From positions 1-46,604 of the forward strand of contig NZ_JAIEQY010000080.1 of NCBI RefSeq assembly GCF_019747315.1: a stretch of 46,604 bases of DNA. The letters run 5' to 3'. Below, piece after piece: positions 1-46,223 of this stretch. Made by a program: the position numbers and the translations under genes. The number at the start of each line of letters is the position of its first letter. Position 1 is the stretch's first letter. The stretch is from Roseococcus sp. GTDB lineage: Bacteria; Pseudomonadota; Alphaproteobacteria; Acetobacterales; Acetobacteraceae. A model generated the notes under the pieces. The model was not told the origin of the DNA. It did not search any database and saw only the letters and a program-made list of their open reading frames with translations.

Positions 1-62
1 ATGGCGCCCCCGGCGGCCATCAGCAGCATCGCGGCTGCCGCGCATTTTCCCCAGAATTGCAT
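1..62 (-). CDS. N-terminus of an exported protein (cut by window edge)
   Basis: Only the first 20 codons are inside the window. Read leftward from the ATG at 62-60 they give MQFWGKCAAAAMLLMAAGGA, a short basic start followed by a hydrophobic Ala/Leu/Met stretch, as in a Sec signal peptide. A purine-rich GAAGAGGACGAG lies about 5-16 nt upstream of the ATG. The gene is divergent from the Alg44-like gene and may belong to the same exopolysaccharide locus, but that is inference. The mature protein cannot be named. The residual doubt is whether the short reading frame is real. Confidence 0.5.
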   Translation of the reverse strand, partial: MQFWGKCAAAAMLLMAAGGA

Positions 63-311: not shown

Positions 312-2015
312 ATGACGCAGAACGAGGGCAATTCGGCTTTGGGGTTCCATGCCGCCTGGCCCCCCGCGCCGCGGCTGAGCCGGCTGGGCGATGCACCTGT
401 CAACCGGCTGGTTGAAGCGCCTGTCAACCGACTGGTCGATTCGTCCGTCAACCGCCTGGTTGAGGCGCCTGGCAAATCGCCCTCCCTTTCCTTCCGCAGC
501 CCCTCCGGCAAGCGGTTGCACCCGCGCGTCGCCCTGCCTGCCAGCGTCGTCATTGGCGGCGCGGAATACGCCCTCTCCGACGTCAGCCTGGGCGGCTTCG
601 CGCTGGAGGGGGAAGGCCCGCCGGCCCAGGTGGATGACCCCCTCCGGGTCACCTTCCACATCGGCAAGGCCGACCTCACCCTGGCCATCGAGGCCACGGC
701 CAAGGTCCGTCGCCTCTCGCGCGGGGCGGCGAAATCCTTCCAGATCATCGAGATGTCGCCCGATGCGGCGGTGGCGCTGGACCGCCTGGTGGCCATCTGG
801 CTTAGCGGTTCCGAGAGCCTGGCCGATGCCCTTTCCCGCTCCTCGCTGGAAGCGCCCGAGCCGGCGCAATCGCGCTCGCGCAACTGGCGCAGCGTCGCGG
901 TGTTCGGGGCGGCCCTGGCGGCGCTGCTGCTGGCGGCGACCTTCGTCGCCTCCAGCCGGCTCGTGGTCTATTCGGAATTCGGCGCTGTCTCCGCGCCGAT
1001 GTGGATGGTGCGCGCGCCGCAGCCCGGCCTGCTGGTCCTGCAGGCCGGCGCGCCCGGCACGCTGACGGAGCCGGGCCAGGTGCTGGGCGAGCTGCACCCC
1101 GCTTTGCCGCCGCAGCTTCTCTCCGACACGGAAAATCAGCTCCAGGCGCTCGAAGCCCGCTCGCGCCAGCTGGCGGGGGAATTGGCGCATGGCGATGCCA
1201 GCTTCCAGGCCTTCCGCGCCCAGGCCGAGGCCGAATTCGCCGCGGCCAGCGAGACGCGGCGCCTGATGGAGCGCCAGGTCGCCACCCAGGAACGCCTGTT
1301 CACTCGCCTGGCCGGGCTGGGCCGCCAGGGGATCATCTCCGCCGCGCGCGTGGATCAGGAAGAAATCAACCTGATGACGCAGCGCCGCGTCCTGGCCGAG
1401 GCCTCCGCGGCCGAGAATGCGGCGCGCCTGCTGCTGGCCGAGGCGCGGGCCGGGCGCTTCCGCAGCGATGGCCGCCCCACGGCGCGCTCGCCCGAAGAGG
1501 TGCGGCGCGAGGCCGCGGCCGTGGACCATTCGCTGGCGGAAATGCGCCAGACGCTGGCCCGGCTGCGCGCGCCCGTGCCGCTGGTCTCGCCCTGCCGGTG
1601 CCGCATTGCGCAGGTCGCCGTGCCCTCGGGCACCGCCGTGGTCGCCGGCGATGTGCTGCTGGGCCTGGCGGAGACCGCCAGCCAGGCGCAGCTGGAGGTG
1701 GATGCGCTGGTGCCCAGCACGCGCATGCCCTTCCTGGAGCAGGGGCAGCGGGTCACGGTCCGCCTCGCCGGCTCGAACGACTCGACGCCGGGGCGCATCA
1801 CCGCCCTCAATCTCAACCCGGAGAATACCGGCCGGATCGGCCTGCCCGACAACCTGCGCAGCCTTCGCATCTATGGTCTGGTGACCGTGGCGCTGGATGA
1901 AGTCCCCCCAGGCGCGGCAATCGGACTGCCCGGGCTGCTCCAGGCGCCGATTTCGCTGCGCATGCTGTTGCTGAACCTGCCGGGCTTCGCCTGGATCGCC
2001 CGGCTGGGCGATTGA
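312..2015 (+). CDS. Alg44-like PilZ/HlyD protein, c-di-GMP-binding subunit of an exopolysaccharide synthase
   Basis: This 567-residue protein has the layout of alginate co-polymerase Alg44: a cytoplasmic PilZ domain, one membrane helix and a periplasmic HlyD-like membrane-fusion part. The PilZ signature is intact, with R68-LHP-R72 and D90-V-S-L-G-G95, so c-di-GMP binding is expected. The helix is at about 194-214, followed by a coiled coil (about 260-390) and a lipoyl/beta-barrel region (about 400-550). Residues 27-50 are three tandem octapeptides ending VNRLV, which I do not know from Alg44. The ATG at 312 follows GAAGAG. The stop overlaps the start of the Alg8-like polymerase, which strongly supports a joint function in polymer synthesis and export. 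The exact polymer is inferred, not shown. Confidence 0.8.
   Translation: MTQNEGNSALGFHAAWPPAPRLSRLGDAPVNRLVEAPVNRLVDSSVNRLVEAPGKSPSLSFRSPSGKRLHPRVALPASVVIGGAEYALSDVSLGGFALEGEGPPAQVDDPLRVTFHIGKADLTLAIEATAKVRRLSRGAAKSFQIIEMSPDAAVALDRLVAIWLSGSESLADALSRSSLEAPEPAQSRSRNWRSVAVFGAALAALLLAATFVASSRLVVYSEFGAVSAPMWMVRAPQPGLLVLQAGAPGTLTEPGQVLGELHPALPPQLLSDTENQLQALEARSRQLAGELAHGDASFQAFRAQAEAEFAAASETRRLMERQVATQERLFTRLAGLGRQGIISAARVDQEEINLMTQRRVLAEASAAENAARLLLAEARAGRFRSDGRPTARSPEEVRREAAAVDHSLAEMRQTLARLRAPVPLVSPCRCRIAQVAVPSGTAVVAGDVLLGLAETASQAQLEVDALVPSTRMPFLEQGQRVTVRLAGSNDSTPGRITALNLNPENTGRIGLPDNLRSLRIYGLVTVALDEVPPGAAIGLPGLLQAPISLRMLLLNLPGFAWIARLGD
390..470 (+). repeat. 24-bp tandem repeat, three full copies and a partial fourth
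   Basis: Three 24-bp units (390-413, 414-437, 438-461) and a truncated fourth (462-470) encode DAPVNRLV, EAPVNRLV, DSSVNRLV and EAP in the Alg44-like N-terminus. The codons differ slightly between units, so the repeat is not brand new and appears to be kept at the protein level. It precedes the PilZ domain. Confidence 0.85.
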
Positions 2016-3700
2016 GGGTGGCCCCACGGCCCAGTGAATCCCTGCTGCCCGGGCACCTCGCGGATTCCACCCCCGGTGCGGCCCTGGCCGGCTGGATGGT
2101 CCTGGCCGCGCTGGCGCTGGTGCTCCTTGCCCTGCTGCCCGAGGAGGACATGCCCACTGCCGGGACGGCGCTGCTGACCATCGGTGCCATCGGCCTCTGG
2201 CGCTGGGGTTGGGCCGCGCTGCATTTCGTGCGGGCGTTGATCTACCGCCGGCGGGTCTTTCCCCGGCTGCGCGCCCTGGCCGATGGCGCGCCGCTGCCTC
2301 CGGCGCTTTATGTCGTCGTCACCAGCTATCGCATCAGCCCGGAGATGAATGCCGCCGTCTATGGGCGCCTGCTGGATGAGGTGATGCGCCTCAGGATTCC
2401 CTGCTGCGTCGTGGCCTGCATCACCGACATGGCCGATGCGGAGGTGCTTCGCCTGGTGTTCGACCGCCGCCGCGCGACCCTGGCCGAAGGCTCTGCGCTC
2501 TACCTCCTGCCGCAGGCGGGCACCGGCAAGCGAGGCGCGCTGGTGGATGCGATCAACCTGATCCAGGGGCTCGGCCCCGCGCCACAGGCGCAGATGCTGC
2601 TGATGGATGGCGACACGCTGGTGGAGCCCGGGCAGCTGGAAAAGACCTGCCGCTTCCTCTCGGCCTTCCCCGATGTGGGGGCCGTCACCACCGACAACCT
2701 GCCCCTGGTGCGTGGCCCCGCCCCAGTGCGCGAATGGTATCGCCTGCGCATGGCGCAGCGCGACCAGGCCATGTGCTCCATGGCTCTGTCGCGCCGCCTG
2801 CTGGTGCTGACGGGACGATTTTCGCTGTTCCGGATGGCGGCCGTGGCCTCGCCGGGCTTCGCGCTGGCCATCGGCAATGACGGCATCCGGCACTGGCGCC
2901 TCGGCTTCATCCGGATGGTGACGGGGGATGACAAGAGCACCTGGTTCGCGCTGCTCAAGACCCCCTGGCGGATGCTCTACATCCCGGATGTCGCGGTGAT
3001 CTGCGCCGAGGAACTGCCGGCGGGCGGCTGGTTCAAGGCGACCACGGCGCTGATGCTGCGCTGGTATGGCAACACCACCCGCAACAATGGCCGCGCCCTC
3101 GCCCTGGGCCCAGGCAGGCTGGGCTGGTTCTTTTGGCTCTGCCTGCTGGACCAACGCGTTTCACCCTGGACCAGCCTGGCGGGGCCGTCGGTGATGCTCG
3201 TCGCGGCCATCCTGCACGGCTACGGGTTCATCATTCTCTATGTGCTGTGGGTGCTGTTCACGCGCAGCATGATCACGCTGCTGAATTGGTGGGGGACGGG
3301 CCGTTTCCATCCGATCTTCCCGCTGCTGCTCTACTACAACCAGATCGTCGGCTCGGTCGTGAAGATCTTCGTGCTGCACCACCCCGACCGGCAGCGTTGG
3401 AACCGCCAGGGGCTGGCGGCGACGGGCAACCAGGGTCTGGCGGCGCGGCTTTCGCCCGGCTTCTTCGCCGTCTCGCTCTGCAGCTTTTTGCTGCTCGTGC
3501 TGGCGCTGGCCCAGCGGCTGGACCCGCAGGTGGAACATGGCGCGCCGGTCGGCCTGCCCGCCGTGCTGGATTCCAGGCCGCGGCCCGAGCACTATCTGCG
3601 CATGCCCTGCGCGCCGGACCGGCTGACCCCCTGCACGACGGTGACGCCGCCGCCGCCGCCCGCGAGCCTCATCGCGCCGGGGCCGCGTCCCAGAGCGTGA
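2012..3700 (+). CDS. Alg8-like family 2 glycosyltransferase (exopolysaccharide polymerase)
   Basis: A 562-residue membrane-bound processive glycosyltransferase. Two N-terminal hydrophobic segments (about 28-45 and 52-75) precede the GT2 domain. It has D199-G-D201 (nucleotide-sugar and metal binding), TGDD at 304-307 (catalytic base region) and RW at 350-351 in LMLRWYGN, the counterpart of the QxxRW site. LALGPGRLGWFFW, DQR-S-WTSL and LLYYNQIVGSVVKIF match Alg8, the GDP-mannuronate polymerase, better than cellulose or hyaluronan synthases (judged from memory). Several helices follow. Translation starts at a TTG (2012) within TTGA, overlapping the Alg44-like stop; a GTG at 2018 is possible. Pairing with a PilZ subunit implies activation by c-di-GMP. 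No algD, algG, algE or other alginate genes are visible. Confidence 0.8.
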   Translation: MRVAPRPSESLLPGHLADSTPGAALAGWMVLAALALVLLALLPEEDMPTAGTALLTIGAIGLWRWGWAALHFVRALIYRRRVFPRLRALADGAPLPPALYVVVTSYRISPEMNAAVYGRLLDEVMRLRIPCCVVACITDMADAEVLRLVFDRRRATLAEGSALYLLPQAGTGKRGALVDAINLIQGLGPAPQAQMLLMDGDTLVEPGQLEKTCRFLSAFPDVGAVTTDNLPLVRGPAPVREWYRLRMAQRDQAMCSMALSRRLLVLTGRFSLFRMAAVASPGFALAIGNDGIRHWRLGFIRMVTGDDKSTWFALLKTPWRMLYIPDVAVICAEELPAGGWFKATTALMLRWYGNTTRNNGRALALGPGRLGWFFWLCLLDQRVSPWTSLAGPSVMLVAAILHGYGFIILYVLWVLFTRSMITLLNWWGTGRFHPIFPLLLYYNQIVGSVVKIFVLHHPDRQRWNRQGLAATGNQGLAARLSPGFFAVSLCSFLLLVLALAQRLDPQVEHGAPVGLPAVLDSRPRPEHYLRMPCAPDRLTPCTTVTPPPPPASLIAPGPRPRA

Positions 3701-4448
3701 GGGCGGCGAAATCCGCCCATTGCTCGCGGGGTGAGGCCCAGCGCGGATCATTGCCGCCGAAGAAGGTGGCGAAGAGAGCGGCATCCACGCGGATGCCGGC
3801 CGTCTCGCGCAGCACCAGGTCGCGCCGTTCCAGCACGCGCTGCCCGTTCACCCAAAGGCGGATCATCCCATTGGCCTCGCCGGGGCGGTTCAGGATCACC
3901 TCCTGCGCAATCTCGGTCCAGGCGCCGGGGGTGAGGCGCCAGCTGCCGCGGCCGATGCTGTCGCCGCAGCGCGCGGCACGGTCCGGCGCGTAGAGGTAGA
4001 GCTCACCTGCGCCCTGGCCGCGCCACATCAGCCGGGCGGAGAAGCCGCGGGAAAGATCGGCCGGCGTGCAGCCGCGCGGCGCCTCGCCCCCCGCGAGCCC
4101 GGGCAGCTTGCCGCCGAGCGCGAAGTCGAAGCCCTCGCCGAAGCGCACGCGGTAGCTGAGGCAGCGTGCCTCGGCCCCCGGCCCCTCCGGCCAGAGGAAG
4201 CCCGCCCCGCCCACCGGGGCCGCGGCGTTGCCCGGATTGATGGAGCCGGCCGGGTAGCGCACGCGCATCCCGCCCGCCTCGCCGGGCAGGGGCGTCACAT
4301 TCTCGCGGCCCCACACCTGGCGAAGGCCAGCCAGGCGCAGATCGCCCGTGAAGGGCGTGGCGCGCGGGTAGCGCCCCTCGCAGGGCTGGGCCATGGCGTT
4401 CGCCCAGGGCAGGCCCAGCAAGGCCAGGCAGGCAAGGCGCCAGGCCAT
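3669..4448 (-). CDS. Secreted PL14-like polysaccharide lyase (putative alginate lyase)
   Basis: A 259-residue protein with a signal peptide (about 1-21, ending ANAMAQ). The body resembles the polysaccharide lyase family 14 fold seen in alginate and glucuronan lyases. GGKLPGL, ELYLYAPD, LNRPGEANGMIRLWVNG and FATFFGGND are the typical strands of that jelly roll. It would cleave a uronate polymer in the periplasm or outside the cell. Its 3' end overlaps that of the Alg8-like polymerase by 32 bp, so maker and cutter of a possible alginate-like polymer lie tail to tail. It starts 11 nt after the Bug receptor stop, with GGGGGG as ribosome site, so the two are probably one transcript. Family assignment is from memory of motifs; activity is inferred. 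Confidence 0.65.
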   Translation of the reverse strand: MAWRLACLALLGLPWANAMAQPCEGRYPRATPFTGDLRLAGLRQVWGRENVTPLPGEAGGMRVRYPAGSINPGNAAAPVGGAGFLWPEGPGAEARCLSYRVRFGEGFDFALGGKLPGLAGGEAPRGCTPADLSRGFSARLMWRGQGAGELYLYAPDRAARCGDSIGRGSWRLTPGAWTEIAQEVILNRPGEANGMIRLWVNGQRVLERRDLVLRETAGIRVDAALFATFFGGNDPRWASPREQWADFAALTLWDAAPAR

Positions 4449-4459
4449 CCGAACCCCCC

Positions 4460-5434
4460 TTACTCCGCGCGGATCTGCGCGCCTTCCACCACGGCGCGCC
4501 AGCGGGTGATCTCCGCCTCCTGGAAGCGGCGGAAATCGGCGGCGCTGGAGGCCACGACATCCACGCCCAACTGGTTCAGCCGCTGCCGGCTCTCGGGGTG
4601 GCGCAGGCTCTCGATGCAGGCGGCCTCCAGCCGCGCCAGGATGGGGGCCGGCACGCCGATCGGCGCCATCACCGCCTGCCAGGAGGTGACGACGAAATCA
4701 TCGAGACCCATCTCCGCCGCCGTCGGCACGTCAGGGATGGTCGGATTGCGCGTCGCACTCGTCACCATCACGGCGCGCAGCCGCCCGCCCGCGATGTGCT
4801 GCGCCACGGTGCCGAGATTCTGGAATGTCAGCTGCACATCGCCGCCCAGCAGCGCCGTCGTCGCAGCCGCCCCGCCCTGGTAGGGGATATGCGTCGCCTC
4901 GGTGCGGGTGCGCAGCTTCAGCAATTCCATCGTCAGATGCTCGGAGGAGCCGACGCCCGAGGTGGAGTAGGAAGCGCGGCCGCCATTGGCGCGCAGCCAG
5001 GCCATCGTGCCCGCGTAATCGGTGGCGGGCACCTGCTGCGGGTTCACGACCAGCACGTTCGGCATGGTGACGGCGAGCGTGATGGGCGCAAAATCCCGCA
5101 CGGGATCATAGGGCAGATTGGGCCGCAGCGCCTTGTTGATGGCGAAGACGCCGATGGAGCCGGTCATGATGGTGTGCCCATCCGCCGCGGCGCGGGCCAT
5201 GGCCTGGGCCGCGACCGCGCCATTGGCGCCGGGGCGATTCTCCACCACCACCGTCTGGCCCAGCAGGCCACCGAGGCGCGCGGCGATGACGCGGCCCGTG
5301 ATGTCCGAAGGGCCGCCCGCCACGAAGGGGATCATCATGTTGATGGGCCGTTGCGGCCAATCCGCCTGGGGCTGCGCGAGGGCGAGGCTGGGCAGGAGTG
5401 CGGGCGTGGCGAGCAGGGCGCGGCGATGGATCAT
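4460..5434 (-). CDS. Bug/TctC-family solute-binding protein (1)
   Basis: A 324-residue periplasmic receptor of the tripartite tricarboxylate transporter (Bug) family, which binds carboxylates and other small acids. The Sec signal peptide is MIHRRALLATPALLPSLALA. PINMMIPFVAGGPSDITGR and VVVENRPGANG are the two hallmark loops, and HIPYQGGAAA and the LGGDVQ segment follow. The ATG at 5434 is preceded by CGGAGGAA, which favours it over longer upstream frames. No TctA/TctB membrane genes are in the window, so it must use a distant permease or act as a sensor. The PL14-like lyase follows after 11 nt, hinting that the ligand could be a uronate fragment (speculative). Confidence 0.9.
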   Translation of the reverse strand: MIHRRALLATPALLPSLALAQPQADWPQRPINMMIPFVAGGPSDITGRVIAARLGGLLGQTVVVENRPGANGAVAAQAMARAAADGHTIMTGSIGVFAINKALRPNLPYDPVRDFAPITLAVTMPNVLVVNPQQVPATDYAGTMAWLRANGGRASYSTSGVGSSEHLTMELLKLRTRTEATHIPYQGGAAATTALLGGDVQLTFQNLGTVAQHIAGGRLRAVMVTSATRNPTIPDVPTAAEMGLDDFVVTSWQAVMAPIGVPAPILARLEAACIESLRHPESRQRLNQLGVDVVASSAADFRRFQEAEITRWRAVVEGAQIRAE

Positions 5435-34241: not shown

Positions 34242-35216
34242 CTAGCCCCCTGGGCGCAGCCCCAGCTCGCGCACCGTCTCGATCTCCTGCGCGTTCACCT
34301 GCACCACGTCATTCGCGTAGTTCTCGCTGTCGAGGTAGCGCACCGGCATGTCGAAGCGGGCCAGCACGGCCAGATGCTGCGGGTCATGCACCGCGGCCTT
34401 GAAGGCGTCATGCAGGATGTTGACGATGGCGGGCGCCGTGCCGCGCGGGGCGGCGATGCCATAGGCGCTCTCGGCCACCACGTCATGCCCCAGCTCGCGG
34501 AAGGTCGGCACATCGGGGAAGCGTGCCGCGCGCTGCGACATCCAGAGGCCGAGCGGCCGCACGCGGCCTTCCAGGGCCATATCCGCCCAGGCCGAGGTCT
34601 CGGCGGAGAACTGGATCTGACCGCCCAGCAGGTTCTGCAGATTGGGCGCCGCACCCCGGAAGGGCACCGCCGTCCATTCGATGCCGAGCATGCGGGCCAG
34701 GCGCGTCATCGTCACATCGGTCGTGTTGGCGCCGGGTGTCCCATAGAAAAGCGTGCCCGGATTGGCGCGGGCGTGGTCGAGCAATTGGCGCATGCTGCGC
34801 CATGGCGCGTCGGGCCGCACCACCACCCCGCCCATGTAGCCCACCATGCGCAGGATCCAGGTGAAATCCTGCATCGGGTCGAAGGGCGGGGTCATGTTCT
34901 GGGCGCGCATCATCGCCGGCATCCGGAACACGCCATTGGGCATCTGGCTGAGCGTATAGCCATCCGGCCGCGCCTCGCGCGCCAGGTTCTGCGCGCCAAG
35001 CGTACCCGAGGCGCCGGGCTTGTTCTCGACGATGATGGGCTGGCCGAGATGGCGGGACGCCACCTCGCAGACCATGCGCATCTGGATGTCGGTCGCACCG
35101 CCGGGCGTCCATGGCACGAAGACTCGCAGCGGCTTGTCGGGGAAACGCGATTGCGCGAGCGCGAGAGAGGGGGCGGCGAGGCTCCCGATCAGGGCCAACC
35201 GGCGCGTGACATTCAT
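34242..35216 (-). CDS. Bug/TctC-family solute-binding protein (2)
   Basis: A 324-residue periplasmic receptor with signal peptide MNVTRRLALIGSLAAPSLALA. PLRVFVPWTPGGATDIQMR and IIVENKPGASGTLG are the ligand loops. GGAGGA precedes the ATG at 35216. It is the last of three tandem receptors and the most diverged: it has GIAAPRGTAPAIV where the other two have GLAGPKNMDPGVV. No membrane partners are nearby. The ligand is unknown; the isoaspartyl peptidase downstream hints at an acidic amino acid or a related carboxylate, which is speculation. Confidence 0.93.
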   Translation of the reverse strand: MNVTRRLALIGSLAAPSLALAQSRFPDKPLRVFVPWTPGGATDIQMRMVCEVASRHLGQPIIVENKPGASGTLGAQNLAREARPDGYTLSQMPNGVFRMPAMMRAQNMTPPFDPMQDFTWILRMVGYMGGVVVRPDAPWRSMRQLLDHARANPGTLFYGTPGANTTDVTMTRLARMLGIEWTAVPFRGAAPNLQNLLGGQIQFSAETSAWADMALEGRVRPLGLWMSQRAARFPDVPTFRELGHDVVAESAYGIAAPRGTAPAIVNILHDAFKAAVHDPQHLAVLARFDMPVRYLDSENYANDVVQVNAQEIETVRELGLRPGG

Positions 35217-35304
35217 GCAGGCGTCCTCCGTTTCCAGGGAGCCTGCGGCTTTCGGGCGAGGCGGCGCAACACACCGCCTCGCACATGCAGCAATCAGCCC
35301 CCGG

Positions 35305-36264
35305 TCAGCTCAGGCGCAGGCCCAGCTGCTCGATCAGCCGGCGCTCCTCCACCATCGTCTGGCGGACGAAGGCGGTGTAGTCGGCGCTGTTCATGTAGTT
35401 GGGCTGCATGTCGAAGCGATCGAGGATCGTGACATGCGAGGGGTCGGCCAGCGCCTCGCGGAAGGCATCGTGCAGCACGCGCACCACGCCGGGGTCCATG
35501 TTCTTCGGGCCCGCAAGCCCGTAGGGGCTGATCGAGACGATATCGATGCCGCTTTCCTTCAGCGTCGGCACGTTCGGGAAGCGCTTGGCGCGGCTCTCGC
35601 CCCAGGTGGCCAGCACGCGCACGCGGCCTTCCTCCGCCATCGGCACCCAGCCCGAGCTGTCGGCCGTGATCTGGATCTGGCCGCCCAGCAGGTTCTGGAG
35701 GTTCTCGGCCACACCCCGGAAGGGGATATGCGTCCATTCCAGCCGCTGCATCTGCGCGATCTGCTCCATCGTCAGATGCAGCGAAGTGCCCACACCGGGC
35801 GTGCCGTAGTTCAGCTTGCCCGGCTCGCGCCGCGCGGCGGCGATGAGGTCACCCAGCGTCTGCCAGGGCGAGTCGGCGCGGACCACGATGCCGAACAGAT
35901 AGCCGGTGACGTGGATGACATAGGTGAAGTCCGCCAGCGGGTCGAACAGCGCACGGCTGTTCAGCAGCGGCTGGCGGAAGACGCTGATGGGCATCTGGCT
36001 CAGCGTGTAGCCATCGGGGGCCGCGCTCAGCAGGGCCTGGGCGCCCAGCACGCCGCCCGCACCCGCGCGGTTGTCCACGATGATGGGCTGGCCGAGCCGG
36101 CGCGAGGCCGCTTCGCACAGGGCGCGCATCTGCACATCCGTCGTGCCGCCGGCCCCCCAGGGGACGATCATGCGGATCGGCCGGTTGGGGAAGTTCTGCT
36201 GGGCATAGACGGGGGACGCCAAGGCGGCGCCGGGCAGGATGAGGGCGTGGCGGCGGGAGATCAT
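35305..36264 (-). CDS. Bug/TctC-family solute-binding protein (3)
   Basis: A 319-residue receptor with signal peptide MISRRHALILPGAALASPVYA. PIRMIVPWGAGGTTDVQMR, IIVDNRAGAGGVLG, IPFRGVAENLQNLLGGQIQ and GLAGPKNMDPGVVRVLHD are visible. GAGGAAA lies before the ATG at 36264. It is closest to the upstream receptor (4), sharing the GLAGPKNMDPGVV string, and so appears to be a tandem duplicate. The 88-bp gap to receptor (2) and the 47-bp gap to (4) show no terminator. Confidence 0.93.
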   Translation of the reverse strand: MISRRHALILPGAALASPVYAQQNFPNRPIRMIVPWGAGGTTDVQMRALCEAASRRLGQPIIVDNRAGAGGVLGAQALLSAAPDGYTLSQMPISVFRQPLLNSRALFDPLADFTYVIHVTGYLFGIVVRADSPWQTLGDLIAAARREPGKLNYGTPGVGTSLHLTMEQIAQMQRLEWTHIPFRGVAENLQNLLGGQIQITADSSGWVPMAEEGRVRVLATWGESRAKRFPNVPTLKESGIDIVSISPYGLAGPKNMDPGVVRVLHDAFREALADPSHVTILDRFDMQPNYMNSADYTAFVRQTMVEERRLIEQLGLRLS

Positions 36265-36311
36265 GGGTGGGGCTTTCCTCGGCTGTTCTTGGCCCCGTCT
36301 ATCGCCCCCGT

Positions 36312-37265
36312 TCAGTCCATCCGCAAGCCCAGACGGCGCACGGCGGCACCCTCTTCCGCGTTGAGCCGCCTTGCAAAATCCGAATAGGCCTCGGGGTCCA
36401 TGTAGCGCACCGGCATGTCGAATCGCTCCAGCGTGGCCACGTGATGCGGGTCGAAGAGGGCGGGCTTGATCGCGTCATGCAGGGCGCGGACCACGCCCGG
36501 GTCCATGTTCTTCGGCCCGGCCAGGCCGAAGGGGCTGTCGGAGACGATGTCGATCCCCACCTCGCGCAGCGTGCGGACCTCGGGGAAGCGCTTGGCGCGC
36601 TCGGCGCTCCAGACGACCAGGAGGCGGAAGCGCCCCTCCTGCACCATGGGCGCCCAGCCCGTGCTGTCGGCCACGCATTCGACGGAGCCTTGCAGCAGCG
36701 CCTGCGTCGTATCCGCGCCGCCGCGGAAGGGGACGTGCAGGAATTCGATCCCGCGCTCGGCTGCGATGCGCTCCATGGTGATGTGCAGCGAGGAACCCAC
36801 GCCGGGCGTGCCGTAGCTGACGCGGCCGGGATTGGCCTTGGCGTATTCGAGGAACTCCTCCCAGGTCCGGTAGCGGCTATCGCTGCGCACCACCACGCCG
36901 AAGACATAGCCGGTGAGGTGGATGACCCAGGTGAAATCGGTCATCGGGTCGAAGGTCGGGCGGCGGGACATGGCCGGGACCCGGAAGATGGTGACCGGCA
37001 TCTGGCCGATCAGGTGGCCATCGCCGCGCGGCTCCTGCGCGATCATGGCTGGGCCCAGCGTGCCGGTGGCGCCGGGGCGATTCTCCACGATGACGGATTG
37101 GCCGAGATTGCGGCCGGCCAGTTCGGCCAGCACGCGAAGATGCGTATCGGCCGAGCCGCCGGGCAGCCAGGGCACGACGAGGCGCACGGGGCGGTTCGGG
37201 AAGCCCTGCTGGGCCAAGGCGGGCGTGGCGAGCGGCAAGGCGAGCGCGGCGCGGCGGGTGATCAT
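36312..37265 (-). CDS. Bug/TctC-family solute-binding protein (4)
   Basis: A 317-residue receptor, first of the tandem trio. The signal peptide is MITRRAALALPLATPALA. PVRLVVPWLPGGSADTHLR and VIVENRPGATGTLG are the loops, and HVPFRGGADTTQALLQGSVE and GLAGPKNMDPGVVRALHD follow. GGGAGGAA precedes the ATG at 37265, which favours it over longer frames. It is divergent from hisZ across 140 bp, where the promoter of the trio should lie. The segment shows no operator I can name. Confidence 0.93.
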   Translation of the reverse strand: MITRRAALALPLATPALAQQGFPNRPVRLVVPWLPGGSADTHLRVLAELAGRNLGQSVIVENRPGATGTLGPAMIAQEPRGDGHLIGQMPVTIFRVPAMSRRPTFDPMTDFTWVIHLTGYVFGVVVRSDSRYRTWEEFLEYAKANPGRVSYGTPGVGSSLHITMERIAAERGIEFLHVPFRGGADTTQALLQGSVECVADSTGWAPMVQEGRFRLLVVWSAERAKRFPEVRTLREVGIDIVSDSPFGLAGPKNMDPGVVRALHDAIKPALFDPHHVATLERFDMPVRYMDPEAYSDFARRLNAEEGAAVRRLGLRMD

Positions 37266-37405
37266 GGCGGTTCCTCCCAGGATTTTGTCGCAGCATGGCA
37301 GCCGGATCAGGCGCCGGTCCATCGCAATCAGCGCGGGGGCAGGGGCACCCATGCCACCCCCGCATCTTGCCCGCGCGCATCCCCCCTGCCACACATCGCA
37401 ACCGC

Positions 37406-45248: not shown

Positions 45249-46223
45249 TCAGCCCAGATTGAGGCGCCGGGCGAGGTCGCGATACAGCGCGATCTGCGTC
45301 TCCACCATCGCGCGCATGGCAGGTCCATCGAGGAAGCGGGGCACGCTGCCGGTGCGGCGCGTGGCGGTGAGCCATTCGGGATCCCCTGCCGTGGCGCGGG
45401 CCACCCGGCTCCAGAATTCCAGCACGGGCTCGGGCAGGTTCGCGGGTGCCGCCAGGGCGTTCCAGCCGGCGAGCTGCGAGAGCGCGGGCAGCCCCGCCTC
45501 GGCCGCCGTCGGCACCTGGGGCAGGCTGGCCAGCCGGGCATCGCCGCTGACGACGAGGGCGCGGACCTGGCCTTGCTGGATGGCGCCCAGCATGTCGCCC
45601 AGGTTGTTGCCCACGAATTGCGCATGGCCGCCCAGCAGCGCCGTCAGCGCCTCGCCACCGCCGCGGAAGGGCAGGGCCTGGGCGGCATCGATGGGCAGGT
45701 CGGCGCTGGCCAGCATGTGCCGGATGCCGAGGTCGAGGATGGTGGCCGGCCCGCTGGTCGCGAAGTTGAGCGTGCCCGGGGCGGCGCGGATGGCGTCGAT
45801 CAATTCCCGCAGGTTGCGCCAGGGCGCATCGGCGCGAACGCAGACCACGAAGGGGTTTTCATCCAGCAGCGCCAGCCAGGTGAAATCCTCGACGGTGTAG
45901 GGCGTTCGCGCATCGGTCGCGGGCAGGATGGCCGAGGAACCCACGCGGGCCAGCAGCAGCGTGTGCCCATCCGGCCGGGCGCGGGCGACGTATTGCGTGC
46001 CGATCGAGCCCGAGGCACCGGTGCGGTTCTCCACGATGATGGGCTGGCCCGGCTGCCCCATGTGGCGGGGCGCATGCGCGGCAAAGAGGCGGGCGGCGAG
46101 ATCCGCCGCGCCCCCCGCGGAGAAAGGGGCCACCAGGGTGACCGGCCGGTCCAGCACCTGCGCCCAGGTGGGGGAGGTGGCCAGCGCGAACGCGCCGAAA
46201 ATGGCCATGCGACGGTTGATCAT
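45249..46223 (-). CDS. Bug/TctC-family solute-binding protein (5)
   Basis: A 324-residue receptor with signal peptide MINRRMAIFGAFALATSPTWA. PVTLVAPFSAGGAADLAAR, IIVENRTGASGSIG and ALPFRGGGEALTALLGGHAQ are the family blocks. The start is ATG 46223; longer frames add an unlikely N-terminus. It lies 115 bp upstream of the thiolase-like gene on the same strand, so it may take up the acid processed by that cluster. The 115-bp gap shows nothing I recognise. It is not one of the tandem trio and is clearly diverged from them. Confidence 0.92.
   Translation of the reverse strand: MINRRMAIFGAFALATSPTWAQVLDRPVTLVAPFSAGGAADLAARLFAAHAPRHMGQPGQPIIVENRTGASGSIGTQYVARARPDGHTLLLARVGSSAILPATDARTPYTVEDFTWLALLDENPFVVCVRADAPWRNLRELIDAIRAAPGTLNFATSGPATILDLGIRHMLASADLPIDAAQALPFRGGGEALTALLGGHAQFVGNNLGDMLGAIQQGQVRALVVSGDARLASLPQVPTAAEAGLPALSQLAGWNALAAPANLPEPVLEFWSRVARATAGDPEWLTATRRTGSVPRFLDGPAMRAMVETQIALYRDLARRLNLG

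Follow-up and report, generated by a model that had tools for sequence, protein, structure and literature searches.

A bounded three-gene cassette of Roseococcus with an Alg8-related synthase, an Alg44-like adaptor and a PL14 lyase: a candidate system for a polyuronate other than alginate

The stretch of DNA analysed here (46,604 nucleotides, referred to as the window) is a whole contig of a Roseococcus genome (G000:C398), and only the right flank of the locus is readable in that genome. At its left end, open reading frames and Pfam matches delimit a cassette of three genes coding for an Alg44-like PilZ/HlyD protein, a GT2 synthase (GT) and a secreted PL14 lyase. This agrees with a preceding sequence-only reading, which had described a PilZ/HlyD protein coupled to an Alg8-like GT2 polymerase, and a secreted PL14-like lyase overlapping the latter tail to tail. 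The features are as follows:

3..62, minus strand: start of an ompW-like resident gene cut by the contig end, outside the cassette (comparison of protein starts with G008)
312..2015, plus strand: gene of the Alg44-like protein (PilZ PF07238 and HlyD_3 PF13437, the latter 36 bits, both above cut-off)
380..475, plus strand: 24-bp tandem repeat, present four times where the alg44-like gene codes for the N-terminal tail (TRF score 108)
510..791, plus strand: stretch coding for the PilZ domain (PF07238, about 32-32.9 bits)
2012..2015, plus strand: TTG start of the GT gene overlapping the TGA that ends the alg44-like gene (sequence)
2012..3700, plus strand: Alg8-related processive GT2 synthase (PF13641, 109 bits)
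3669..3700, no strand: tail-to-tail overlap of the GT and PL14 genes, 32 bp (gene coordinates)
3669..4448, minus strand: secreted PL14 polysaccharide lyase (PF21294, 178 bits)
4460..5434, minus strand: resident TctC-type receptor forming the right border, outside the cassette (PF03401; comparison with empty sites)

A GTG at 2018 is an alternative GT start to the TTG at 2012. Judged by gene ends, the GT and PL14 genes also overlap by 32 bp in the remaining genus carriers, G008, G014 and G015. The ompW-like product begins with MQFWGK, as compared with MKSWGK in G008, and its counterpart in G015 is an OmpW (PF03922).

With respect to its distribution, the GT is present in four of the 21 genomes of the genus, i.e., the window's genome and the three just named. 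At seven of ten cassette-free sites examined ompW abuts tctC, the two matches lying 155-182 bp apart, and because the two genes adjoin each other where the cassette is missing, the cassette is bounded; it is an accessory and self-contained unit and not a torn alginate operon. That it might be a piece of a larger alginate operon clipped by the contig end is ruled out by the three carriers with both flanks, and the leftward extension proposed earlier as a way to export and epimerase genes leads nowhere of that kind, as resident ompW and tctC bound the cassette. No algD-, algG-, algK-, algE- or algX-like neighbours stand beside it in the flanks of G008, G014 and G015 or on the right side in the window, so that the lack of these genes already remarked upon in the sequence-only reading holds in carriers with sequence on both sides, nor are precursor, export or modification genes of an alginate operon clustered in the flanks of these three genomes. 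The cassette itself contains neither a sugar-nucleotide gene nor a dehydrogenase. OmpW was considered as exporter and ruled out, since ompW is also found at sites without the cassette. Partial AlgE-like matches to PF13372 (43-46 bits) turn up in three of the four genus carriers, either on a different contig or at a great distance from the cassette. As the GC3 of the cassette (0.88-0.90) matches that of other genes in the window (fhs 0.88, tctC 0.90), a recent foreign origin is not indicated by base composition.

The PL14 gene is convergent to the GT gene in all seven carriers found in the window's family, comprising the four of the genus, Pararoseomonas, G177 and G239. The same trio also occurs in Microvirga and Hydrocarboniphaga, PL14 adjoining the synthase in both, and each genus carrier has exactly one PL14 match, the cassette's own copy. 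Of the earlier suggestion of a uronate exopolysaccharide system of Acetobacteraceae with its own lyase, the lyase and a probable uronate polymer are retained, whereas the system is not peculiar to that family, given these two genera and the kin in Halomonadaceae described below.

According to Pfam and an AlphaFold model (mean pLDDT 79, pTM 0.43), the Alg44-like protein consists of a disordered N-terminus, a PilZ domain (strands at 77-148), one membrane helix (188-216) and a periplasmic HlyD/EmrA-type barrel with a long alpha-hairpin (helices at 267-338, 344-379 and 394-419), and hence has the PilZ domain, the single membrane helix and the membrane-fusion domain of an Alg44. The c-di-GMP motifs of PilZ, RLHPR (RxxxR) and DVSLGG (D/NxSxxG), are intact, predicting binding, and the modelled domain superposes in Foldseek on the Alg44 PilZ with c-di-GMP (4rt1; TMt 0.80, 2.7 A, 107 columns). 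The top Foldseek match of the model is EmrA (4tko), which shares the barrel and the long hairpin, whereas the window's protein differs in its cytoplasmic PilZ domain and in having a glycan synthase as its partner. Pseudomonas-type Alg44 aligns piecewise to about 67-255 and 424-502, skipping the hairpin, which makes up the difference in length between the 567 aa of the window's protein and the 387-404 aa in six Pseudomonas-type loci. NCBIfam (E 0.1) returned general adaptor models and one unrelated model for this protein, all below their cut-offs, and no match for the GT or the lyase.

The putative lyase has a Sec-type signal peptide, as judged by eye, and belongs to PL14 by its profile as well as by its active-site residues: K114, S137, R139, Y151 and Y153 align with K92, S114, R116, Y128 and Y130 of vAL-1 (chain 3a0n), residues with a catalytic role. 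vAL-1 is a chlorovirus enzyme lysing cell walls, whereas the window's lyase is closer to 5gmt, its best solved relative (1e-23), which is named an alginate lyase. Of five solved PL14-like relatives four bear this name, the other name met with being VAL-1, and crystals of vAL-1 with GlcA are given in a figure legend (3a0n, 3im0).

The GT is 39-40% identical to six Pseudomonas-type Alg8 proteins and has the motifs of processive synthases in invariant columns (DGD 199-201, GDDK 305-308, RW 350-351). No solved relative was found by sequence, either with the single sequence (E 1) or with a profile (0.001). Among the fold matches listed, the nearest to its model (pTM 0.78) is hyaluronan synthase (Z 27.5, 382 residues, 2.9 A, 15% identity), as against Z 18.9-20.8 for bacterial BcsA chains, and the likeness has no Alg8 control. 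No Alg8 structure is named among these matches, which tells nothing about membership. Hyaluronan synthase moreover is a one-protein system without a PilZ adaptor.

In the phylogenetic tree, the synthases linked to GDP-mannose dehydrogenase (GMD), which include the Pseudomonas-type enzymes, form a branch of 24 rows (support 84/95); others are linked to UDP-glucose dehydrogenase (UGD). By sequence, the window's GT is Alg8-related but lies outside this branch: holding it together with the GMD-linked synthases was rejected (p-AU 0.00016), as was the window clade as sister of the UGD/PL14 clade (p-AU 0.00015), the groups being named after the first tree. A grouping with cellulose or other synthases, which had been put forward as speaking against kinship with Alg8, was not seen, although this is a weak test, as the E. 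coli outgroups BcsA and PgaC sit on branches of about 10 and are useless for rooting or placement. Loci L154, L166 and L170 (GT missed by the gene caller) and the duplicates L018, L019, L161 and L162 were left out of tree and locus counts, and the tree further omits L037, L044 and L104 as well as the greater part of the Halomonadaceae rows, which were thinned with a list drawn up by hand.

A search with PF00984 found no GMD in any of the four genus carriers, of which two are 98-99% complete and 1% contaminated and two are drafts of lower purity or completeness; the only types that turned up were UGD and WecC. Because the GT lies outside the GMD branch and GMD was not found in the genus carriers, the label 'alginate-type' given to the locus in the sequence-only reading is misleading as to the product. 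UGD is present in all four, its apparent lack in the window's genome being an assembly gap, as contig C310 ends inside the gene (142 residues at 92%). All four also have a WecC/Cap5O-type dehydrogenase and PF01050, as in AlgA-type enzymes, and therefore GDP-mannose is probably available to them. In Pararoseomonas, which has the cassette, a search for GMD and UGD yielded only one WecC-type dehydrogenase, and GMD was found in four of ten window-clade genomes (G177, G239, Microvirga and Hydrocarboniphaga sp.).

Most loci compared stem from the best 80 of 568 matches. Among the matches listed, PL14 accompanies none of 24 GMD-linked loci as opposed to 57 of 59 UGD-linked ones, and UGD directly precedes the GT in 55 of the latter; conversely, MBOAT-like and AlgA-like genes (16/24 each), AlgG-like genes (11/24) and AlgX/J-like genes (19/24) are found in the GMD-linked and in none of the 59 UGD-linked loci. 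However, because 56 of these 59 belong to Halomonadaceae (outside them PL14 occurs in one of three, again among the matches listed), the linkage of UGD and PL14 amounts to about one independent contrast, i.e., one pair, and the counts are not independent events. Of 20 loci in a Rhizobium-like family, 15 have GMD and none has UGD or PL14.

From the gene content, motifs, borders, tree position and dehydrogenase inventory shown above it is proposed, with a probability of roughly 0.45, that the cassette makes a polyuronate other than alginate, in the simplest case polyglucuronate, by means of a synthase under c-di-GMP control that works together with an EmrA-like adaptor and a dedicated lyase. The GT would polymerise a sugar nucleotide, most simply UDP-glucuronate, and thread the chain through the inner membrane, while the PilZ domain of the Alg44-like protein beside it would sense c-di-GMP. 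The EmrA-like barrel would carry the chain across the periplasm, and the long hairpin would probably dock to a resident outer-membrane channel, of the TolC type or another, in place of AlgK/AlgE. The PL14 enzyme would cut this polymer, within the periplasm or beyond it, either trimming it or clearing misrouted chains like AlgL. Against this stand the Pararoseomonas genome with its cassette, in which neither GMD nor UGD was found, the GMD genes in the window clade, the lack of a dehydrogenase in the cassette, the rejected sister relationship with the UGD/PL14 clade, and the names of the solved PL14 relatives (alginate lyases or VAL-1). The UGD-PL14 linkage, too, is about one contrast, and UGD is widespread and serves other purposes as well. 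Furthermore, the known glucuronan makers are rhizobial, yet the 20 loci of the Rhizobium-like family include none of UGD type, and the GT had no match on a Sinorhizobium plasmid.

An acidic polymer of mixed or different composition, e.g. one in which GlcA alternates with a second sugar, or one of an N-acetylated uronate made via the WecC-type dehydrogenase, is an unlikely product, although this dehydrogenase occurs in all genus carriers and in Pararoseomonas and the nearest fold is that of a dual-donor enzyme. A fold likeness at 15% identity tells little of donors, the usual role of WecC-type enzymes is in capsule or O-antigen loci, and the cassette has no sugar-nucleotide gene. In its favour, at least one uronate lyase (Smlt1473) is described as broad in range. 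A stripped-down alginate (polymannuronate) synthase, with PL14 in AlgL's place and GDP-mannuronate made elsewhere in the genome, is somewhat more doubtful still: the identity to Alg8, the GMD genes of the window clade, the probable GDP-mannose supply and the lyase names are in its favour, but the four genus carriers, two of them nearly complete, yielded no GMD, the GT lies outside the GMD branch and PL14 is missing from the GMD-linked loci listed. That the lyase is a scavenger of foreign alginate or algal glucuronan, by chance beside an unrelated synthase, is very improbable in view of the convergent pair in all seven family carriers, its adjacency in Microvirga, Hydrocarboniphaga and nearly all listed UGD-linked loci, and the single PL14 match per genus carrier, even though PL14 enzymes are reported, in the source excerpts available, from sea hare and chlorella viruses.

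Compared with known systems, the window shares with Alg8-Alg44 of Pseudomonas and Azotobacter a GT2 polymerase with DGD and GDDK, a PilZ-TM-membrane-fusion partner and a lyase in the locus. It differs in having no algD-, K-, E-, G-, X-, I-, J-, F- or A-like neighbours, in the order alg44 then alg8, in PL14 replacing PL5 and in the GT's place outside the GMD-linked branch. An operon common in Halomonadaceae (UGD-alg8like-alg44like-PL14-PL5-Sel1), for which no published name was found, has the GT, Alg44-like and PL14 families in common with the window, and both are without AlgA/G/I/X-like genes. Unlike the window, it includes a UGD along with a PF05426 lyase and a Sel1 protein, the GT and alg44-like genes stand in reversed order, and its GT forms a separate clade. 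The second alginate-type operon reported for Ectopseudomonas guguanensis (algDA-alg8-alg44-Un-Un-algIJFXLG; PMC13296017, in the portion available) likewise has the Alg8/Alg44 pair in a non-canonical setting, but retains algD and algA together with modification genes; locus L158, which is arranged much alike, belongs to the GMD type and is placed at a great distance from the window in the tree. A literature search recognised no such locus as the window's, and two papers on cyanobacteria report, in their accessible parts, either that a PilZ+HlyD_3 protein is missing there or that alg44-like genes are without PilZ.

The adaptor suggests that an Alg44-type protein might export its polymer without AlgK/AlgE, by way of an EmrA-like hairpin, and PL14 enzymes would gain a biosynthetic role. 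As a tentative generalisation, held at somewhat less than even odds, Alg8/Alg44 machines may be split into a GDP-mannuronate branch making alginate and one or more UDP-glucuronate branches making polyglucuronate with a dedicated PL14 lyase, the window being the smallest version and the Halomonadaceae operon the fullest. Glucuronan is a bacterial product whose biosynthesis genes and loci remain unknown according to the available text of a 2023 paper (PMC10180729). The UGD-synthase-adaptor-PL14 operon together with the three-gene cassette is a concrete candidate for these genes, and if the split is true, bacterial glucuronan synthesis would have its first genetic candidate, one under the control of c-di-GMP.

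With respect to the sequence-only reading, its three genes, coding for an Alg44-like protein, a GT2 synthase (GT) and a PL14-like lyase, are found where it had placed them, as open reading frames with Pfam scores above the curated cut-offs. The window itself spans one entire contig (G000:C398), at the left end of which lie the following features.

Features at the left end of the window (coordinates, strand, description)
3-62, minus strand: start of the ompW gene, a resident neighbour by site comparison
312-2015, plus strand: Alg44-like gene; PilZ 32 bits and HlyD_3 36 bits, both above the curated cut-offs
2012-3700, plus strand: GT2 gene; Glyco_tranf_2_3 109 bits, above the curated cut-off
3669-4448, minus strand: PL14 lyase gene; Polysacc_lyase_14 178 bits, above the curated cut-off

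The GT2 gene starts at a TTG overlapping the TGA of the Alg44-like gene, or else at a GTG at 2018. The tail-to-tail overlap of GT and lyase, also seen in the earlier reading, measures 32 bp, and its recurrence at equal length in the other three carriers of the genus (G008, G014 and G015) exceeds chance.

The GT is present in 4 of 21 genus genomes (G000, G008, G014 and G015). In G008, G014 and G015, where both flanks are sequenced, the order is cysI-like gene, small gene, ompW, cassette, tctC and fhs. Ten more genus genomes were inspected at ompW: in seven (G005, G011, G012, G007, G016, G019 and G009) no more than 155-182 bp separate ompW from tctC by their matches, without the cassette, and in three (G004, G010 and G003) ompW occurs with prx and fhs while tctC was not found. 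Since flanked sites with the cassette and ompW-tctC sites without it both exist, the three genes are a single bounded accessory unit, comprising by its sequence the synthase, the PilZ adaptor and the secreted lyase. Its GC3 is similar to that of the adjoining genes. To the left, where the sequence-only reading proposed looking for export and epimerase genes, G008, G014 and G015 have ompW, the small gene and the cysI-like gene. Besides the TctC-like receptor gene at 4460-5434, several more such genes lie at 34242-37352 and 45249-46223 (gene calls, similarity by eye).

In the family sampling (249 genomes) six genomes match, three strongly (G000, G177 and G239) and three weakly (E 4.8e-4 to 9.9e-4). 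Among the best 80 of 568 loci from the scan of named genomes, identities are 53% for Pararoseomonas, 44-48% for Hydrocarboniphaga and 47% for Microvirga, contigs of G014 and G008 also being present; after Microvirga come Vibrio, Bacterioplanes and numerous Halomonadaceae. The PL14 gene is convergent to the GT in all seven carriers found within the window's family (the G239 contig begins inside the GT, so that any alg44 would lie beyond its end), and in Microvirga and Hydrocarboniphaga all three genes share one strand.

In a GT tree of 57 rows, with the Halomonadaceae thinned by hand, the window GT falls into a clade of eight (three genus rows, Pararoseomonas, G177, Microvirga and two Hydrocarboniphaga; support 97/85). 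All 24 rows linked to GDP-mannose dehydrogenase (GMD) lie on one side of one branch (84/95, not starred), and 16 rows form the group linked to UDP-glucose dehydrogenase (UGD) and PL14 (100/99), whose member L100 has no called dehydrogenase. Constraining the window clade together with the GMD rows was rejected (p-AU 0.00016), as was joining it to the UGD/PL14 rows (p-AU 0.00015), both tests being weakened by the groups having been named after the first tree was seen. Because both placements are rejected, the window clade is, on its sequences, a third lineage, neither Alg8 proper nor simply the Halomonadaceae type. In the PL14 tree, which has long branches, the window groups with Roseococcus, Pararoseomonas and Microvirga (100/98). 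The GT of Hyphomonas sp. (L113) and a related genome (L164) forms yet another, long-branched lineage and is accompanied by a long Alg44-like protein, with neither dehydrogenase nor PL14 in the locus.

Alginate requires GMD (AlgD), according to PMC3815931. BLAST typing of the 85 locus dehydrogenases, for which the UGD of L026 (best solved match 4a7p), a GMD encoded in a Pseudomonas-type operon and one enzyme of WecC type served as references, gave 61 UGD and 24 GMD with non-overlapping score margins. Subtracting three loci without a called GT and four duplicates from 109 left 102, most from the best 80 of 568. Gene content comes from our own gene calls and BLAST clusters: the names UGD, Alg44-like, PL5 and Sel1 are based on Pfam scans of one or two proteins per cluster, MBOAT and AlgA on plasmid-record annotation, and AlgE, AlgG and AlgX/J on position in the Pseudomonas-type operon.

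Gene content of synthase loci by dehydrogenase
GMD (n=24): PL14 0, PL5-like 16, Sel1 9, MBOAT 16, AlgA-like 16, AlgE-like 9, AlgG-like 11, AlgX/J-like 19
UGD (n=59): PL14 57, PL5-like 57, Sel1 56; MBOAT, AlgA-, AlgE-, AlgG- and AlgX/J-like each 0
No called dehydrogenase (n=19, including the window's clade): PL14 10, PL5-like 5, Sel1 2; MBOAT, AlgA-, AlgE-, AlgG- and AlgX/J-like each 0

Of the 59 UGD loci, 55 have UGD directly before the GT, and 56 are from Halomonadaceae; of the three from outside that family, Caenispirillum has PL14, and Bacterioplanes and L085 do not. On the tree, the UGD versus GMD contrast amounts to one independent pair. In the family of the Rhizobium-like G384, 23 of 297 genomes match, at 25 places; among the 20 places examined (all but G384's own, L159, and four others), hits above 55 bits put GMD in 15, and UGD and PL14 in none.

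The conserved Halomonadaceae operon (L045-L115, e.g. L069:8574-19000) reads UGD-alg8like-alg44like-PL14-PL5-Sel1 and often adjoins SUF/Rrf2-like or purA-like genes (by eye); four Billgrantia loci (L057, L059, L062 and L076) carry a second PL14 and PL5-like pair after Sel1. Nesting of the Caenispirillum copy (L058) among halomonads on the tree suggests transfer. A lone alg8-alg44 pair in a 1.8-Mb genome (L021:9784-12913) is flanked by a glutathione-peroxidase-like gene on one side and by flagellar-like genes on the other (by eye), lyase and dehydrogenase clusters not being found nearby, and the Pseudomonas-type G467 (L153, L154) has a second strong synthase-profile match outside its alginate operon.

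A PF00984 search found UGD in G008, G014 and G015, a WecC/Cap5O-type enzyme in all four genus carriers, and GMD in none of them; in G000 the UGD is cut by the end of its contig (142 residues, 92%). Completeness and contamination are 98-99% and 1% for G008 and G015, 97% and 6.5% for G000, and 88% and 7% for G014. Ten genomes count as window-clade, eight through their tree rows and two, G014 and G239, through sequence identity; UGD occurs in eight of the ten and GMD in four. H. effusa has UGD and no GMD. However, Pararoseomonas shows a single dehydrogenase, of WecC type, G239 (67% complete) shows GMD alone, and GMD accompanies UGD in G177, Microvirga and Hydrocarboniphaga sp., all of which counts against our leading reading, a c-di-GMP-gated synthase of a non-alginate polyuronate, most simply polyglucuronate, which we place slightly below even odds (about 0.45).

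The window Alg44-like protein retains RLHPR and DVSLGG, and 16 of 18 aligned rows have both motifs complete when D, N or E is accepted in the second, homology in the two misses (L039 and L050) beginning upstream of the called start. In its model (mean pLDDT 79, pTM 0.43) the PilZ domain is joined by a single membrane helix to a barrel from which a long helical hairpin extends. Among solved structures it is matched best by EmrA and EmrAB-TolC, and also by the Alg44 PilZ domain 4rt1 (107 columns, 2.7 A). Pseudomonas-type Alg44 aligns piecewise, to about 67-255 and 424-502, and the predicted hairpin is therefore an extra of the window protein. Lengths are 465-635 aa in UGD loci (59 proteins) and 299-468 aa in GMD loci (14 clustered). 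A 24-bp tandem repeat (four copies, 380-475; VNRLVEAP-type) extends the N-terminal tail and is absent from the nearest relative (G014/L037), and all 18 Alg44-like proteins compared keep both cysteines of a CxC motif (C428 and C430) within the latter half of the lipoyl barrel.

Of the solved folds compared with the GT model, that of chlorella virus hyaluronan synthase comes first (Z 27.5, 382 residues, 2.9 A), followed by PcManGT (24.6), Chs1 (21.4) and BcsA (about 20.7), a ranking that, run without an Alg8 control, indicates no more than a processive membrane GT2. The PL14 protein retains K, S, R, Y and Y aligning with vAL-1 residues that we take to be catalytic. PMC9614988 describes vAL-1 crystallised with GlcA, and PMC8511899 a different lyase, Smlt1473, active on polyglucuronate (at pH 7) as well as on alginate (at pH 9); uronate lyase range can thus be broad, and the family name does not settle which substrate is cut.

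Because of the lyase, the polymer would be acidic and, GMD not being found in the genus, probably not mannuronate there; UDP-GlcA would be the simplest donor, since UGD is present and is the operon partner in cousin loci. Export may proceed via the hairpin through a resident channel, and the lyase might act as trimmer or clearer, as AlgL is described to do in PMC3815931. In the open-access literature, mostly judged from listings, we recognised no description of the trio or of the Halomonadaceae operon, and PMC10180729 gives the genes for glucuronan as not known. The synthase and adaptor families are already known, which does not apply to their combination, to the accompanying lyase or to the probable product.
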